Below are positions 1,288-53,731 of a DNA stretch of 64,000 bases, piece by piece. This DNA comes from Burkholderiaceae bacterium (lineage in GTDB: Bacteria; Pseudomonadota; Gammaproteobacteria; Burkholderiales; Burkholderiaceae_A). Where the stretch lies: contig JAGYKN010000008.1 of NCBI GenBank assembly GCA_018401615.1, forward strand, positions 1 to 64,000, given 5' to 3'. The notes below the pieces were generated by a model. The model worked only from the letters and a program-made list of their open reading frames with translations. It did no database searches and was not told the origin of the DNA. Position 1 is the first letter of the stretch. Each line of letters begins with the position of its first letter. Made by a program: the position numbers and the translations under genes.

Positions 1288-1766
1288 TAGTTGAGAACGA
1301 CGACCCCAAGGTTGATGGCTGCGGCAAGGGTCACCCAGATCAGATACGGCCAGAGCAACTTTGCGGCCTTGGGGGCGTAGGCCTGCTTGTGCAGGATCAG
1401 CATCAAGACAGAGGCCCAGAGCAACGGCACCTCTAGGAGGGCAAGACCGGGGCGCTGAAGAAGAAAGAACAAGAGGCTCCAGCCAAGGTTAAACACCGCA
1501 TTGGCGACCCACAACCAGATGAGTTGCCGGCGGCGACTCACCTGGCCCTCACTGGCAGCCCAGCCGAGGGCACCAGACCATGCCATCAGGCCAAACAGGA
1601 TTGTCCAGGCGGGGCCAAAGGCCCAGTCAGGCGGCTTGAACCAAGGCTGCTCAAGGCCAAAGTACCAGTCGTCTAGGATGGTGAGCGATCCGCCAGCACC
1701 CGCCACAGCGATGGCGAGGAGGGCGGCAATGAGGAGTTGTTTTCTGCTGGCCTGTGGTGATGTCAT
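1287..1766 (-). CDS. tspO: TspO/MBR family tryptophan-rich sensory protein
   Basis: 159 residues, the typical length of bacterial TspO (also called CrtK). Motifs include EQPWFKPPDWAFGPAW and FGLMAWSGALGW, with five hydrophobic segments and many tryptophans, as in this family of porphyrin/cholesterol-binding membrane proteins. In phototrophic proteobacteria TspO modulates pigment-gene expression in response to oxygen, probably by affecting tetrapyrrole export or breakdown. It overlaps the bchP stop by four bases (ATGA), so it is the last gene of a leftward bchG-bch2-bchP-tspO unit. Direct involvement in pigment regulation here is inferred from family and location. Confidence 0.93.
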   Translation of the reverse strand: MTSPQASRKQLLIAALLAIAVAGAGGSLTILDDWYFGLEQPWFKPPDWAFGPAWTILFGLMAWSGALGWAASEGQVSRRRQLIWLWVANAVFNLGWSLLFFLLQRPGLALLEVPLLWASVLMLILHKQAYAPKAAKLLWPYLIWVTLAAAINLGVVVLN

Positions 1767-2975
1767 GCGCGAACAAAGCCAAGCAGGTGCGCGACATCTT
1801 TGAGGAAAATCCGAAGGTGGGCCATGGGCTTGCGGCGGACCAGTCGCTTGTTCATATAAGACTCAAATGTGATTTGTTGTACGTCTTTGTCTTTGCAGAT
1901 TTTAACGAATTGTTCCCGGCGCTTGTCGCTGCCGTACCAGAATCGTTGGAGCAGGCCCAGGACCCAGAAGACCCGGCCATGCTCTTTCATGAAGCGCCTG
2001 CGCGCACTGGCCAGTGCCTTTGGCCGATTGGTCTGAAGGGCCTCCTCGACTGCATCGGCAGCAAGCCGGCCACCAAGCATCGCGTAGTAGATTCCATAAA
2101 ACTTCACCAGCCACCACGCCGGCAGCATCTCCCGCCAGAATGATTTGTCGGCCGTTGTCCCATATTGGGAGTGGCTTGAGGGGAATCGGTGCCCCCTCCT
2201 GTCGGATGGTCTCTGCGCCCGAGAGGCCGGCCATGGCCCTTAATGCGGTCGTGGCGGTGCGCAGCGAGAAGCCCTTGTCCATGCTGCCCGTGCCCACACT
2301 AAGGTGGTCTCCATGGGGGAAGACCCAGCCGTAGAAGTCTGGTGAGATGGTGCCGTTATAGATGACATCGCATCGGATGGGGTCGTAATCGATTCCCTGG
2401 TTGCGGCAGACAATTGGGTCTGGCGTTTTAAGGATCTCGTGATACGCATAGACAAAGCGGCCTTCGCCTGACCTTGGGATGTGGCGTTGGGCAATCTTGG
2501 AGCGGGCCCCATCGGCCCCAATGATGTAGCGGGCTCGAACCTCATGGGGATGTCCCTCATGGGCCTCAGATGGGGTGGCGTTCAGGGAGATTCTTGTGTA
2601 TCCGTCTGCATCTGCCGCATCGACAAGGCTTGAGAACTGCCCGGAGAAACGTTCGGCGCCGTTGGAGGCAGCCCGCTCGCGCAGCCATTCATCGAAGTGC
2701 TCGCGATCAACCATGCCAACAAAGCCATTTTCAATGGGGATGTCCACCTTCTTGTCTGTGGGAGAGACCATCCGCGCGCAGGCAATCTTTGCCGTCAGGA
2801 GCTCGTCTGGTATCTCAAAGTCAAGGATGGCCCGAGGCGGAATGGCGCCGCCACAGGGCTTGATCCGACCGGCCCGATCGACGAGCAGCACACGATGCCC
2901 TCGGCGTGCAAGGTCATCGGCGGCAGTGGCACCAGCAGGGCCTCCTCCAATCACAACAACATCGTAGTCAGACAT
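1763..2975 (-). CDS. bchP: Geranylgeranyl reductase BchP, interrupted by a frameshift
   Basis: Start chosen at 2975: AAGGAG lies 8 bases upstream and the protein begins MSDYDVVVIGGGPAGATAAD, a classic FAD-binding GxGxxG fold; the longer reading from 3068 runs into bch2. BchP reduces the geranylgeranyl tail of bacteriochlorophyll a to phytyl. The N-terminal frame is good to AGDAAGVVA near 2115. The family then has a PASGEG-type flavin motif followed by GIYYAM; here GIYYAMLGGRLAADAVEEAL and the rest of the C-terminus (to 1763) continue in another frame. Removing one base (for example from the T run near 2099-2102) or adding two restores the frame. This is either a real lesion or an assembly indel. 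Confidence 0.85.
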
Positions 2976-4320
2976 GGCAGGCCTCTCCTTCGGGGGTTTG
3001 CGCGGGTATTGAAGACGGGGTGGCCTGTTCCCTGGGAATGCTGCGTGCGAGTTGGGCGGCCACCACAAAGAGCATTGCTTCTAACAAAAAGACGAATCCG
3101 TAGGCGGTCCCGAGGTCGTTGACCACAAGCCGTGCGAGGTCAGATAGCCCCGTTCCAAGGAGGCCACCAAGGCCAAATGCGATGGCCTGTGCGGCACCCC
3201 AGATGCCCATGCGTGTGCCCTCTCGGCTGCCTGCGCCCTCGCTGGCAAGGCGCATCATGGAGGCAATGGCGGCAATTGAGAAAGCGCCGTTGGCGGCACC
3301 GAGCAGAAAGACGTTGGCCTTGAGTGGCCAGGCTGGGGAAAATTGGCCGGCAAGCGTGAGCCCGAGGAGGGCCAGGCCCGAGACCAGGCATCCTGAGACG
3401 GTCCAGAAGGTGAGGGAACCAAGGCGTCGGCCAAAGAGGCGGCCGCTGCCCGCAGCCGCCACGATGAGCATGCCGCAGAGCACGCCAGCATGCTGCAGGC
3501 CTGATAACTGGGTGGTGGCCCCGGGTGTCATGCCAAATACATGGCCAGCAAAGGGCTCGAGGATGAGGTCCTGCGCGCTAAAGGCCAGCATGGAGATGGC
3601 CACAAACCAGGTGAACTGCCGAGTCGATGGTTCGCGCAAGACCTCACCAAGGGCATCTCGGAATCGAACCTTGGGTGTGATGTCAATGGCGGCCTCGGGC
3701 TGCGGTTGGCCCATTTGGGAGGGCCGTTTCTCAAGGCCCAGCAGGGTCACCGCTGTGATGAGGCTTGCCAGCAGGGTCACGCCGGTGGCCACTGCCACGA
3801 GGCGCTCGGGTGAGAAGGGATCGAGCAACTTACCAGCCACCCCCGCGGTGATCGCAAAGCCGGCGATCATCATCATCCAGACCAGCGTGGCAGCGCCGGC
3901 TCGTCGTTGGGCGGAGGTTCGCTTGGCCAGGAGGGTTAGAACAGATGTGCCGCAGGCGCTCACCCCGACGCCAATGAGCAGAAATCCCAGGGTCACCACC
4001 ATCAAGCCAGTGCCGTGTGCGCTTGCAATCGCGGCTGTTCCCCAGGCCGCCAGCCAGCCGCCAAGGCTCAGCAGCAGCATGCCGCCGAGAATCCAGGGGG
4101 AGCACCAGCCGGACGTGTCTGCACCAAAGCCCATGCGCGGGCGCAGCAGCTGCACGAGGTAGTGCATGGCCACCAGAAGCCCCGGGATGACGGCAGCCAG
4201 GCCGAGTTCCACGACGAGGATGCGGTTTAAGGTGGAGGTGGCCAACACCACAACGCCACCAATACAGGCCTGAATCAGCCCAAGCCTGGCGATCGAGAGC
4301 CAGCCAAAAGTCGGGCTCAT
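2968..4320 (-). CDS. PucC/LhaA-family transporter-like protein (bch2/ORF428 type)
   Basis: 450 residues, about 12 hydrophobic segments, beginning near SIARLGLIQACIGGVVVLAT and containing STLNRILVVELGLAAVIPG, the signature start of the BCH2/PucC branch of the major facilitator superfamily. Members lie between bchG and bchP in many photosynthesis clusters (orf428) and are thought to help deliver bacteriochlorophyll or assemble light-harvesting complexes. It overlaps the bchG stop by four bases (ATGA) and its own stop overlaps the bchP start region, so it is translationally coupled to both. The paralogue lhaA lies at 22030-23460. Substrate and exact role are not established. Confidence 0.9.
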   Translation of the reverse strand: MSPTFGWLSIARLGLIQACIGGVVVLATSTLNRILVVELGLAAVIPGLLVAMHYLVQLLRPRMGFGADTSGWCSPWILGGMLLLSLGGWLAAWGTAAIASAHGTGLMVVTLGFLLIGVGVSACGTSVLTLLAKRTSAQRRAGAATLVWMMMIAGFAITAGVAGKLLDPFSPERLVAVATGVTLLASLITAVTLLGLEKRPSQMGQPQPEAAIDITPKVRFRDALGEVLREPSTRQFTWFVAISMLAFSAQDLILEPFAGHVFGMTPGATTQLSGLQHAGVLCGMLIVAAAGSGRLFGRRLGSLTFWTVSGCLVSGLALLGLTLAGQFSPAWPLKANVFLLGAANGAFSIAAIASMMRLASEGAGSREGTRMGIWGAAQAIAFGLGGLLGTGLSDLARLVVNDLGTAYGFVFLLEAMLFVVAAQLARSIPREQATPSSIPAQTPEGEACHV

Positions 4321-10913: not shown

Positions 10914-12323
10914 TCAGTTGCCTGCATCGCCGTCTGACCCATCGATTCCGAAGCGCCGAAGCTTGACATAGAGGCTCTGCCGGGAGAGTCCCAACATTTC
11001 TGCCGCCGATGCTCGATTGTTTTTGGTGAGCTTGAGGGCGGCCTCAATGCAGAGCTTTTCGATGAGATCAACCGTCTCGCCAACGATCTCTTTTAAGGGC
11101 AGCCGGCCCACCAGCGCGGTCAGGTCGGCCCCGCTTCGGCCCACCGGACTCGAGGTCTCCGGCGTGGATTCGAGTCGGCGATTGACGTCTCTCACCACAA
11201 ATCCCAGCAGGGTCTCGGGGCCAAGGGTAAAGCTCACACCCGAGAGCTCAACCGGCACGCTCAGGCCCGACTCACTGATCAACTGGGTGGAAAAGAGTCG
11301 CACGCTGCCGCCTTGGGCAAGGCTATTGATCATGACCAGCAGGTCGGTGTTGGCCCGACCCAGCCAGCGGTTGAGCGATTCGCCGATGATCTGACCAGTG
11401 TGTGCGGCCTGGATCTGCTCTGAGAAGGCGGGGTTTGCATGACGGATCACACCCTTTGAATCGGTGATGACAAGGCCATCGCTGACACGGCGCAGGGCCT
11501 CGAGCACCGAGGCATCCTCCGGGGAGGACGGCAGCCCATTGGGCGGCTCGATTCGGATGAGAAAGACCGTCTCGGATTCCTGACGCAGACACGAGACGGC
11601 GGTTCGTGCGCGGGTCTGCCCCTGAGAGAAGGTGATCTCGGTCTCGCTTGCCCGGCCTGACCCGCTGACCTGCTGCAGGAGCATCTGGCAGGCACCCTGG
11701 GCCCCTGCGTCGACGAGGTGGTCGAAGGATTCGCCCTTCAGGGATGCAAGCTCTTGCCCAAAGAAGAGGCCTGCGGCGCGATTACACGCGATGATGGTGT
11801 GGTCGCGGGCACGAATGATCAGGATGGGGTCTCGAACGAGGTCAAAGAGGGTGCGATATTCATTCTCAATCCGACGCAGCCTGCTGTAATCGCGCTCCAT
11901 GAGTTGCTGGGCTTCAATGAGTCGGCCCTGCAAGGCAGCCAGCGGGCGAAGGTCGCGGCCGATCGCGACCATGCGGCCATCTGGCCCGACCTTGACCAAC
12001 GAGAAGAGAATTGGAACCTCGACGCCGTCGGGCTGGATCTGGTTGATATGACGCCAACGCGCATTCGGCTCTCCACCGGTGACCAGCGAGAGCATCTCGC
12101 GAACCTTCGGCCGGCTCTCAGATGTGACGAGGCTCTCCCAGCTGCGACCAATCCAGGCCCGATAGGAGGCCGAGGCCCATGCCTCGGCGCTCGCCGCGAC
12201 ATCTTGAACCTCTCCCTTTGCGTCTAAGATCAGTGCGACGTCTGCAGCTGCCTCGACAAGGGCAGCCGTGGCCTGGGCATCAAGGCCAGACATCTCTCCT
12301 CTTGCGCCCTCAATGCGACCCAT
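10914..12323 (-). CDS. ppsR: Redox-responsive photosynthesis repressor PpsR/CrtJ
   Basis: 469 residues. An N-terminal PAS-like region and two further PAS domains (about 155-265 and 270-385) precede a Fis-type helix-turn-helix at 436-457 (ASAAEMLGLSRQSLYVKLRR). Two cysteines sit where the redox pair of PpsR/CrtJ is known: Cys245 in the central PAS region and Cys425 just before the helix-turn-helix (KLCIEAALKL). The protein represses bch, crt and puc-type genes by binding TGT-N12-ACA; such sites occur at 5227-5257 and 13226-13259. Its start lies inside the end of ppaA in another frame. An internal ATG at 12293 with AGGAG upstream is an alternative start. Confidence 0.95.
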   Translation of the reverse strand: MGRIEGARGEMSGLDAQATAALVEAAADVALILDAKGEVQDVAASAEAWASASYRAWIGRSWESLVTSESRPKVREMLSLVTGGEPNARWRHINQIQPDGVEVPILFSLVKVGPDGRMVAIGRDLRPLAALQGRLIEAQQLMERDYSRLRRIENEYRTLFDLVRDPILIIRARDHTIIACNRAAGLFFGQELASLKGESFDHLVDAGAQGACQMLLQQVSGSGRASETEITFSQGQTRARTAVSCLRQESETVFLIRIEPPNGLPSSPEDASVLEALRRVSDGLVITDSKGVIRHANPAFSEQIQAAHTGQIIGESLNRWLGRANTDLLVMINSLAQGGSVRLFSTQLISESGLSVPVELSGVSFTLGPETLLGFVVRDVNRRLESTPETSSPVGRSGADLTALVGRLPLKEIVGETVDLIEKLCIEAALKLTKNNRASAAEMLGLSRQSLYVKLRRFGIDGSDGDAGN

Positions 12324-13175
12324 GGTGACCTCTATTTAGAAAGTAATGTTGAGCGGCTTTCACCGCGTCGGGGGCGTCGCCCGTGATGAGATCTGCCCCA
12401 GCAGCCCTTGCCTGGTTCGGGAAGACCCCGACGCCGGGCCCACCAATCATGACGGCGGGTTTCATGGCTCGGCAGCCCCTGCGCAGCCGCGTGACCCCCT
12501 GAAGCAGAAGTGTGCCCCTGACCTCGACGAGTGCCTCGGCCAGTTCGGGCGAGACCGTCCTCAGCCCTCCCAGGCACAGGCTGCCTCGAGGAGCTGGATT
12601 CGCTGGCTGATTGGGTGGACGGTGACCCGCCAGCCTGCCTGGGCGAAAAATGCCGCCACCATTCGCAGGCCGAGTCGATGTTGGCTACCAGGGGTGGTGC
12701 AGAGAAAGAGGCCAGGCAGGCCAGGGGTGCCCTGCTCAGGCCTGGCCTGGGTGTAGAAAGACTCGACGTGTTCAGAGAAGATGCCCTGAAGGGTCCAGAG
12801 CCCAACCGTGACATCGGTGAAGCTGGCGGTGTCTGCCACCCAGCGCTCCCCGAGCAGCCTGGCGGCCGGTTGAATCAGGGACAAAAAGAGGGACTCGGTC
12901 CGCAGTCCTGCAGACAGCTGGGCTTGAACCAGTGCCCGACAGGACTCAAGGTCGCCTGCGGCGGCAAGTGTTGCAAGGGCGTCGGCCTGGTCTCGGACCG
13001 CCCCCCCCACGGGCGCAAGCGGCTGGGCGTCTTCCAATGGGCTTGCGACTCTCGCGAAGGCGTCAGGGCCATGGGGCTCTAACTGCTCGAGCAAGACGAG
13101 CCGAGGGATGACCTCCTGCGTGAGCAGACTCAAGAAGGTTTCAGGTTCGGACTTTTGGGATGAACTAGACGACAT
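12310..13175 (-). CDS. ppaA: PpaA/AerR-type cobalamin-binding antirepressor, frameshifted
   Basis: The first frame (12561-13175) gives 204 residues resembling PpaA/AerR, the B12-binding light-responsive partner of PpsR, with the helical domain around ERWVADTASFTDVTVGLWTL and the start of the Rossmann-like domain (LFLCTTPGSQHRLGLRMVAA). It stops at EAACAWEG. Shifted by one base, translation continues RTVSPELAEALVEVRG, then PAVMIGGPGVGVFPNQA and ADLITGDAPDAVKAA, the expected C-terminus, ending at 12310 and overlapping the ppsR start. One missing base near 12565-12570 (a GGGAGGG tract) explains it. The start has GGCAAGGAG upstream. Without repair the C-terminal third is lost. Confidence 0.85.
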
Positions 13176-13225
13176 GGGAACTCCTTGCCCCGGTGTCAGA
13201 CGACTATGCAGGACGCATTTGCGTT

Positions 13226-13259
13226 TGTCAATCTAAATTGATGTCAAATAAAATTGACA
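13226..13259. promoter_or_regulatory. Tandem PpsR/CrtJ operator between ppaA and bchF
   Basis: A perfect TGT-N12-ACA palindrome (TGTCAAATAAAATTGACA) at 13242-13259 and a near match with the same CAA/TTG arms (TGT-N12-ATG) at 13226-13243, start-to-start spacing 16 bases. Two closely spaced sites are typical for cooperative PpsR binding. They lie 65-100 bases upstream of bchF and 50-85 upstream of ppaA, so they could control both directions, including the 14-kb bch-puh superoperon. Confidence 0.8.
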
Positions 13260-13324
13260 TTCTTTTGGGGCCGTTTTAGAGTCAGTCCCTATAAGAGCAG
13301 TCACAGACCAGTGGAGCAGCAACT

Positions 13325-21323
<7,999 letters not shown>

Positions 21324-51622: not shown

Positions 51623-52135
51623 CTACGCCCTGCGCGTGTAGCGCACAAAGGTGTAGCCCAGGCCCTTCGATTCGCTGCGCTCCCCCGGGGTGCGAACCCA
51701 CTGCGCCGGGTCCAACGGCGGGAAGAATGCATCGCCCTCGGGCGAGGCCTCAATCTCGGTGGCCTCGATCACATCGAGCTGCGCCATGCACTGCCCATAG
51801 ACCTCTGCGCCGCCAATCACCATCAGCTCATCCAGGCCGCGCGCCCGGGCCATCTCCAGGGCATCGGCCAGGCTGCTCGCCCGCGTGATGGCGTCTGACC
51901 CCACCACCTCTGGTGCCCAGGCCGATGACCGGGTGAGCACCATCTGAGGGCGGCCTGGCAGTGGCCGGCCCAGCGAGGCCAGAATGGATTCGAAGGTCTT
52001 GCGGCCCATGAGCACCGTCTTGCCCATGGTCAGGGCCTTGAAGTGGGCCAGGTCCTCGGGAATGTGCCAGGGCATCTCGTTGTTGTGACCAATGCAATGA
52101 TTCTGGCCCAGGGCCACCACAGCAATGAGCTTCAT
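51623..52135 (-). CDS. folA: Dihydrofolate reductase
   Basis: 170 residues. [20 protein letters not shown] start, substrate loop MPWHIPEDLAHFK, NADPH-binding VLMGRKTFES and VIGGAEVYG. It regenerates tetrahydrofolate after thymidylate synthase. ATG overlaps the corrected thyA stop (TGATG), so the pair is co-transcribed leftward. Confidence 0.96.
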   Translation of the reverse strand: MKLIAVVALGQNHCIGHNNEMPWHIPEDLAHFKALTMGKTVLMGRKTFESILASLGRPLPGRPQMVLTRSSAWAPEVVGSDAITRASSLADALEMARARGLDELMVIGGAEVYGQCMAQLDVIEATEIEASPEGDAFFPPLDPAQWVRTPGERSESKGLGYTFVRYTRRA

Positions 52136-52946
52136 CAGATGGCCACCGGCGCCTTGATCGCCGGGTGCGACTCGTAGCCTTCAATCACAAAGTCTTCGAA
52201 CGCATACTCAAACAAACTGGTCGGCCTGCGCAGGATGCGCAGCTGCATCCCGAGGACGCAGAGGGCTCGCGCGCCAGCTGCAGCTGCGCCTGCTCCAGGT
52301 GGTTGTTGTAGAGGTGACAGTCGCCGCCCGTCCAGATGAAGTCGCCCACGGCCAGGTCCGTCTGCTGGGCCACCATGTGGGTGAGCAGGGCATAGCTGGC
52401 AATGTTAAAGGGCACACCCAGGAAGATGTCTGCACTGCGCTGGTAGAGCTGGCAAGAGAGCCGGCCGTCGGCCACATAGAACTGGAAGAAGGCATGGCAG
52501 GGGGCGAGTGCCATCTCGGGCAGTTGGCCCACATTCCAGGCACTCACGATCAGCCGGCGGGAATCCGGATGTCGGCGAATGTCGCGCACGACATCGGCGA
52601 GTTGATCAATCGCATGGTGGGGGTTCTCCGGCTGCGGTGCCGGCCAGGCCCGCCACTGCTTGCCATAGATGGGCCCGAGCTCGCCATCGGGCCGGGCCCA
52701 TTCATCCCAGATGCTCACGCCGGCCGCCTGCAGGCTCTTCACATTGGTCTGGCCGCGCAGGAACCAGAGCAGCTCATGGATGATGCTCTTGGTGTGCAGC
52801 TTCTTGGTGGTGACCATGGGAAAGCCATCTGCGAGGTTGAACCGCATCTGCCAGCCAAAGACCGAGCGGGTGCCCGTGCCGGTGCGGTCAGTCTTCTCCG
52901 TGCCACGCGCGAGCACATGGCGCATGAGGTCCAGGTAAGCCTTCAC
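52135..52946 (-). CDS. thyA: Thymidylate synthase, frameshifted near the 3' end
   Basis: The uninterrupted frame (52185-52946) gives 253 residues with the catalytic [47 protein letters not shown] and [19 protein letters not shown], then runs into non-homologous sequence after LAREPSAS. Shifted by one base, the true end follows: [19 protein letters not shown], then [17 protein letters not shown] to TGA at 52135. A single missing base near 52249-52262 explains it. ThyA makes dTMP from the dUMP that Dcd feeds. The conserved C-terminus closes over the active site, so the unrepaired product would be defective. Confidence 0.92.
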
Positions 52947-53731
52947 CCGTCAATCAAGCCCGAGGCCACCGTGGAGAAGCCGGCATCCACATAGGTGATC
53001 TCGCCCGTCACGCCGGCGGCCAGGTCTGAGAGCAAGAAGGCGCAGACGTTGCCCACATCCTCGGTGCTCACATTGCGCCGCAACGGCGCATTCTTCTCAA
53101 CAACCGAGAGGATGTTCCCGAAGCCTTTGATGCCGCTGGCTGCGAGGGTCTTGATGGGTCCAGCCGACACGCCATTGACCCGAATGCCCTTCGGACCCAC
53201 GCTTGAGGCGAGGTATCGCACCGAGGCCTCAAGACTCGCCTTGGCCAGGCCCATGGTGTTGTAGCCTGGAACCATGCGTTCTGCTCCCAGGTAAGTCAGG
53301 GTCAGCATGGCGGCTGCCCGCCCCTCCATCAGGGGCAGCAGGGCCTTGGCCAGCGCCGCAAAGCTGTAGGCACTGATGTCATGGGCCGTCCTGAAGCCCT
53401 CGCGTGTGAATCCCTCTAAGAAGTCGCCGGCGATGGCCTCCCGGGGGGCGAAGGCAATCGCATGCACCATGCCGTCTAAATACGGCCAGTGGCCCTGAAG
53501 GGCACCGACAAGCGCGTCAATCTGGGCATCCTCGGCCACGTCGAGTGGAAGGCAGATGCTGCTCTCGAACTCTGCAGCCATCTCTCGAACCCGGCCTTCA
53601 AAACGCTCCCCCTGATAGGTAAAGGCGAGCTCCGCGCCCTGAGCGAAGCAGGCCCTTGCAACCCCGTGGGCGATGGACCGGTTGGACAAAAGCCCGGTGA
53701 TGAGAATGCGCTTTCCACGAAGAAAGGACAT
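52943..53731 (-). CDS. fabI: Enoyl-[acyl-carrier-protein] reductase FabI
   Basis: 262 residues from ATG 53731 ([20 protein letters not shown]). Short-chain dehydrogenase fold; catalytic tyrosine and lysine in [28 protein letters not shown] region typical of FabI, and [14 protein letters not shown] near the substrate loop. It performs the last reduction of fatty-acid elongation. Its stop overlaps the thyA start by four bases, giving a leftward fabI-thyA-folA unit. Upstream frame extension to 54007 overlaps the yejA start region and is rejected. Confidence 0.95.

Follow-up and report, generated by a model that had tools for sequence, protein, structure and literature searches.

The ppsR-adjacent gene of this Burkholderiaceae bacterium, a putative ppaA/aerR, is divided between two reading frames in the deposited sequence, which raises the question of whether the organism has lost a B12-dependent regulator or whether the sequence is at fault. 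The window, that is, the whole stretch of 64,000 nucleotides that was analyzed, corresponds to contig C77 of a draft genome of 1.62 Mb in 78 contigs (86% complete), of which 1,097,336 of 1,623,014 bases were inspected. The nearest relatives of the draft are Burkholderiales and Betaproteobacteria, mainly represented by metagenome-assembled genomes but including the isolate LSUCC0115 (G002). The features discussed are listed in the table.

Features of the ppaA-ppsR locus and of frameshifted genes in the same draft; positions are those of the window unless another locus is named
Feature	Position	Strand	Remarks
bchP, frameshifted	1766..3239	-	break 2109-2095
ppsR/crtJ repressor	10914..12323	-	469 aa, intact frame, TIGR02040 434 bits
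family C-terminus (MIGGP...GDAPDAV)	12310..12498	-	-1 frame, stop ends at 12310
stretch showing no clear similarity to the family, whatever the frame	12465..12577	-	coding-like composition, downstream frame
ppaA/aerR-type gene, 5' part	12561..13175	-	204 aa; TGA stop 12563-12561
site of frame change	12564..12577	-	net -1 mod 3; contains GGGAGGG 12571-12565
palindrome TGTCAAATAAAATTGACA	13242..13259	.	perfect; fits TGT-N12-ACA; between ppaA and bchF
bchF, divergent neighbor of ppaA	13325..13810	+	
thyA, frameshifted	52135..52949	-	break about 52263-52245
icd, frameshifted	L174 (G000:C1) 12365-13623		

Identity of the gene beside ppsR

The assignment of the split gene to the PpaA/AerR type, already proposed in an earlier note on this DNA, is supported because an AerR chain (7te2_A) is the sole PDB sequence match of the 204-aa product (E 8.5e-5), because the adjoining gene encodes a TIGR02040 PpsR, and because the same neighborhood is kept in 10 of the 11 genomes of the genus. 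The intact PpaA of G009 matches the same PDB chain with an E value of 1.2e-14, and the two ppaA products are 47% identical. As in known PpaA/AerR co-regulators of PpsR/CrtJ, the gene lies directly beside ppsR and overlaps it: the 3' frame of ppaA shares 14 nt with ppsR from its ATG at 12323, as is the case in G009, the closest intact relative. One scan of viral contigs yielded no relative.

The divergent bchF is separated from ppaA by a region that includes the palindrome TGTCAAATAAAATTGACA, which we take to be a predicted PpsR-type site of the form TGT-N12-ACA. This pattern is no commoner in the window than in shuffled sequences. In D. shibae, bchF and ppaA are described as divergent genes flanking PpsR sites, in the available part of the source (PMC10890935).

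According to the accessible text on the structure of SAerR, cobalt has His145 as its lower ligand, Trp94 and Phe101 cap the upper side, and the cofactor tail is held by Thr189 and Gly220 (PMC9144470). Residues of the present protein were matched to AerR numbering by eye, and the counts refer to 28 aligned relatives, from which L029, judged by eye to be a CarH/MerR-like protein, was excluded. The lower-ligand position is H, and the Trp94- and Phe101-like positions of the four-helix cap are W and F, in the present protein and in 28/28 relatives, all three positions lying inside the 204-aa product. Unlike in PpaA/AerR proteins, the frame breaks ahead of the Thr189/Ser- and Gly220-like positions, both of which are absent from the 204-aa frame. 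The product scores 19.8 bits with the Pfam B12-binding profile, below the cut-off of 32.1, and the match ends at profile position 47 of 121, whereas the intact G009 copy scores 43.5. A complete B12-binding (Rossmann-type) domain is thus not contained in one frame, the rest being encoded in another, and the proposal that the truncated product stops within this fold was supported.

The break and the extent of the lesion

A net shift of -1 mod 3 in ppaA is certain. In the 204-aa frame, the TGA stop comes shortly after the GGGAGGG tract, and the neighboring -1 frame reads ...PAVMIGGPGVGVFPNQARAAGADLITGDAPDAVKAAQHYFLNR... as far as its own stop. This 3' frame matches residues 229-294 of G009 PpaA with 57% identity (E 4.9e-12). 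The frame of codon usage switches at approximately 12590-12565, and a frameshift-aware alignment against a profile of 18 intact relatives places a single -1 shift at 12567. At equal penalty, a 17-nt skip (+17) scores 115.0 compared with 106.3 for the -1 shift.

The DNA from approximately 12577 to 12465 has no convincing alignment to G009. When cheap shifts are allowed in this stretch, 14 of 60 shuffled sequences score equally well, and a search for multiple small shifts that would restore the GLSxxSE motif within it found none. Around GLS, the G is conserved in 27/28 and the S in 28/28 aligned relatives; in the present sequence even the best reading gives a blurred version of this motif. In the downstream frame, the composition of the unalignable stretch is that of coding DNA (GC3 0.80, +0.34 bits/codon). 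The earlier note had attributed the split to a one-base deletion after which the neighboring frame continues directly to the end of the gene. The split itself, the family C-terminus and the terminal stop stand. A single-base deletion is unproven as a full account, given that the +17 model scores slightly better and that no frame of about 12577-12465 shows resemblance to the family; a direct continuation is likewise unconfirmed.

A mobile or repeated element was also considered for this stretch and rejected: its only other match in the same genome spans 39 bases at 82% and is taken as chance. That match lies in another gene, whose reading frame there is the same and gives ELAEAL. Among 9-mer repeats near the break, no template for an insertion was found.

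The view that ppsR is left intact holds for its reading frame, but not for its context, since a ribosome that terminates at 12561 no longer reaches the overlap of the ppaA stop with the ppsR start. If the split is real, the two genes would be uncoupled at this overlap.

Cause of the split

Both ppaA and PpsR are present in 10 of the 11 genomes of the genus, the present one included, with neither found at family strength in G008, and the other nine ppaA copies are open across the break site. Across the family, 24 of 26 genomes (again including this one) have a good ppaA match, G025 having none and G008 a weak one only. A check of these relatives for intact copies, as the earlier note had proposed, showed that 22 of the 24 well-matched genes are intact and two are split, the present one and that of G018 (L025), in which the frame shifts at eight consecutive A, at nearly the same protein position, and the 3' part lies in another frame. 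The 3' part of the present gene still has an open frame, the residues typical of the family and the same 14-nt overlap as G009, so that ppaA does not appear to have been inactive for long.

The same draft also has breaks in unrelated core genes. Under a strict test, seven frameshifted genes were detected in about 319 kb, namely thyA and bchP in the window and, on other contigs, ligA, icd, ilvD, maeB and an amgK-like kinase (the last three at L259, L260 and L263); ppaA is not among them, its 21-residue gap between pieces exceeding the 15 allowed. In thyA, residues up to about 228 are in one frame and the C-terminal 36 in another. Neither a second thyA nor a thyX was found in this draft, which at 86% completeness may be missing rescuing copies. 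The ligA gene (L180, G000:C8, 13261-15274), matched at a single place, is broken into three frame pieces, of which one contains an internal TGA, and bchP loses a conserved stretch after GDAAGVV, the APASGEG of its relatives being replaced by unrelated bases. Short, badly aligned stretches accompany the breaks in icd, thyA and bchP, as in ppaA.

The strict test gave one site in 261 kb for G002, three in 229 kb for G003 and none in 86 kb for G009, or four in about 576 kb for the three relatives pooled. The excess in the present draft is no more than suggestive, with p about 0.055 against the pooled relatives and 0.064 against the isolate. With looser settings there were five sites in the present draft (on fewer of its bases), three in G002, six in G003 and one in G009. 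The G009 site arose from the broken bchP of the present draft used as a query, and for this reason the strict test of the controls did without query proteins from the present draft. LigA and ThyA are normally essential, and for this reason the identity of the broken genes is a stronger argument than their rate.

We infer that the cause is an assembly or consensus error, and the split in the deposited sequence is probably of this kind: with core, normally essential genes of the same draft cut likewise, an error in the sequence is likelier than the real loss of a regulator. The resemblance to consensus indel errors in draft metagenome genomes lies in several core genes of a single draft being frameshifted; the breaks seen here differ in that not all are single-base homopolymer changes and several include short unalignable stretches. 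Counting against an error, the unalignable stretch in ppaA has a good coding composition, a property that garbled sequence would not be bound to show. If an error is the cause, the locus holds an ordinary ppaA/aerR that runs in the same direction as ppsR and shares 14 nt with its start, and a short faulty stretch with a net -1 shift breaks this gene in the deposited consensus. In the living organism ppaA would most likely be intact, and its native product may be a normal cobalamin-binding PpsR co-regulator working like AerR/PpaA.

A real, recent frameshift, by deletion or short insertion, that inactivated ppaA is the second most likely explanation, although less probable than an error. The net -1 shift and the open, conserved 3' part are compatible with it, and there is a precedent in Rhodospirillum rubrum, where a PpaA-like gene spontaneously lost one G in a run of seven, as far as the accessible part of the report shows (PMC10734443). 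Reduced expression of photosynthesis genes in darkness is described, in the portion available, for a ppaA::Tn mutant of D. shibae (PMC10890935). In the present organism, PpsR without its B12-dependent partner would be expected to repress photosynthesis genes more tightly, and ppsR translation might also drop with the loss of the stop/start overlap. Yet the similar breaks in thyA, ligA, icd, ilvD and maeB show that the draft consensus is unreliable, and the stretch 12577-12465 is left unexplained by a simple one-base deletion. A biological one-base deletion, as originally suggested, was not borne out, given these breaks and the one in bchP.

It is highly improbable that the 204-aa protein is itself a functional form, a PpaA trimmed down to its four-helix cap plus the initial Rossmann unit that acts on PpsR free of cobalamin, the B12 sensor being either an intact paralogue encoded on contig C34 or missing altogether. 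That intact PpaA-like gene (C34:56447-57211; L096 7424-8239, minus strand; 271 aa), distant from ppsR, would fit such an arrangement, as would the C-terminal split of ppaA in G018 and, by the available account, R. rubrum HP1, which has 181 aa without the B12 motif and still controls pigment synthesis (PMC10734443). However, the abandoned 3' frame keeps family residues, which is unexpected if it had long been dispensable, nearly all well-matched family copies are intact, and G018 is broken at a run of A, a kind of site that is prone to errors. Programmed -1 ribosomal frameshifting, which would join the two frames into a full-length protein, was rejected and has a very low probability. Collinearity of the two frames and the -1 direction of the shift favor it, but there is no in-frame X-XXY-YYZ heptamer near 12567. 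The sole such heptamer in the ORF is GGGGGGG at 13008, a stop at about 12687 in the -1 frame separates this heptamer from the break, and the intact family copies need no shift.

Expected consequences if the truncation were genuine

If the split were real, the 204-aa product would retain the residues of the cap and the His that serves as lower ligand, though not the rest of the cobalamin fold, and from its sequence it would likely not bind cobalamin. The PpaA-like protein encoded on C34 could then cover part of the function. As an analogy, according to the accessible part of one source, loss of AerR in R. capsulatus leads to constitutive repression of photosystem genes, while R. sphaeroides is hardly affected by losing PpaA (PMC5362033). 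The one-G deletion in the R. rubrum PpaA-like gene abolished pigment in microaerobic culture, according to the available text (PMC10734443). The gene with this 7G6 frameshift, encoding HP1 (Rru_A0625), is, like the present one, PpaA-like and adjacent to ppsR, and is truncated by the loss of one G. It differs in that wild-type HP1, as described there, itself lacks the B12 motif, and in that the 7G6 mutation was confirmed by resequencing and knockout, whereas the present split is read from a draft consensus (PMC10734443).

There is a very small chance that the split is both real and tolerated, which would make this an aerobic Burkholderiales phototroph with a cobalamin-independent, truncated PpaA next to ppsR, for which R. 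rubrum HP1 offers a possible parallel, and in which the unlinked, intact C34 protein provides the B12-dependent light or redox input. A natural ppaA-negative, ppsR-positive phototroph would be useful for testing the role of the B12 partner. As a caution, regulator loss read from one draft needs to be checked against the essential genes of the same draft.

Approximately 5 kb from the second ppaA-like gene, a single-PAS protein of 136 aa is encoded (L096 13336-13746, minus strand). Its GKSPKLLQG segment is presumably LOV-like but without the photoactive Cys. Second PpaA-like copies similar to that on C34 are present in G001 (contig C31) and G019 (contig C28).
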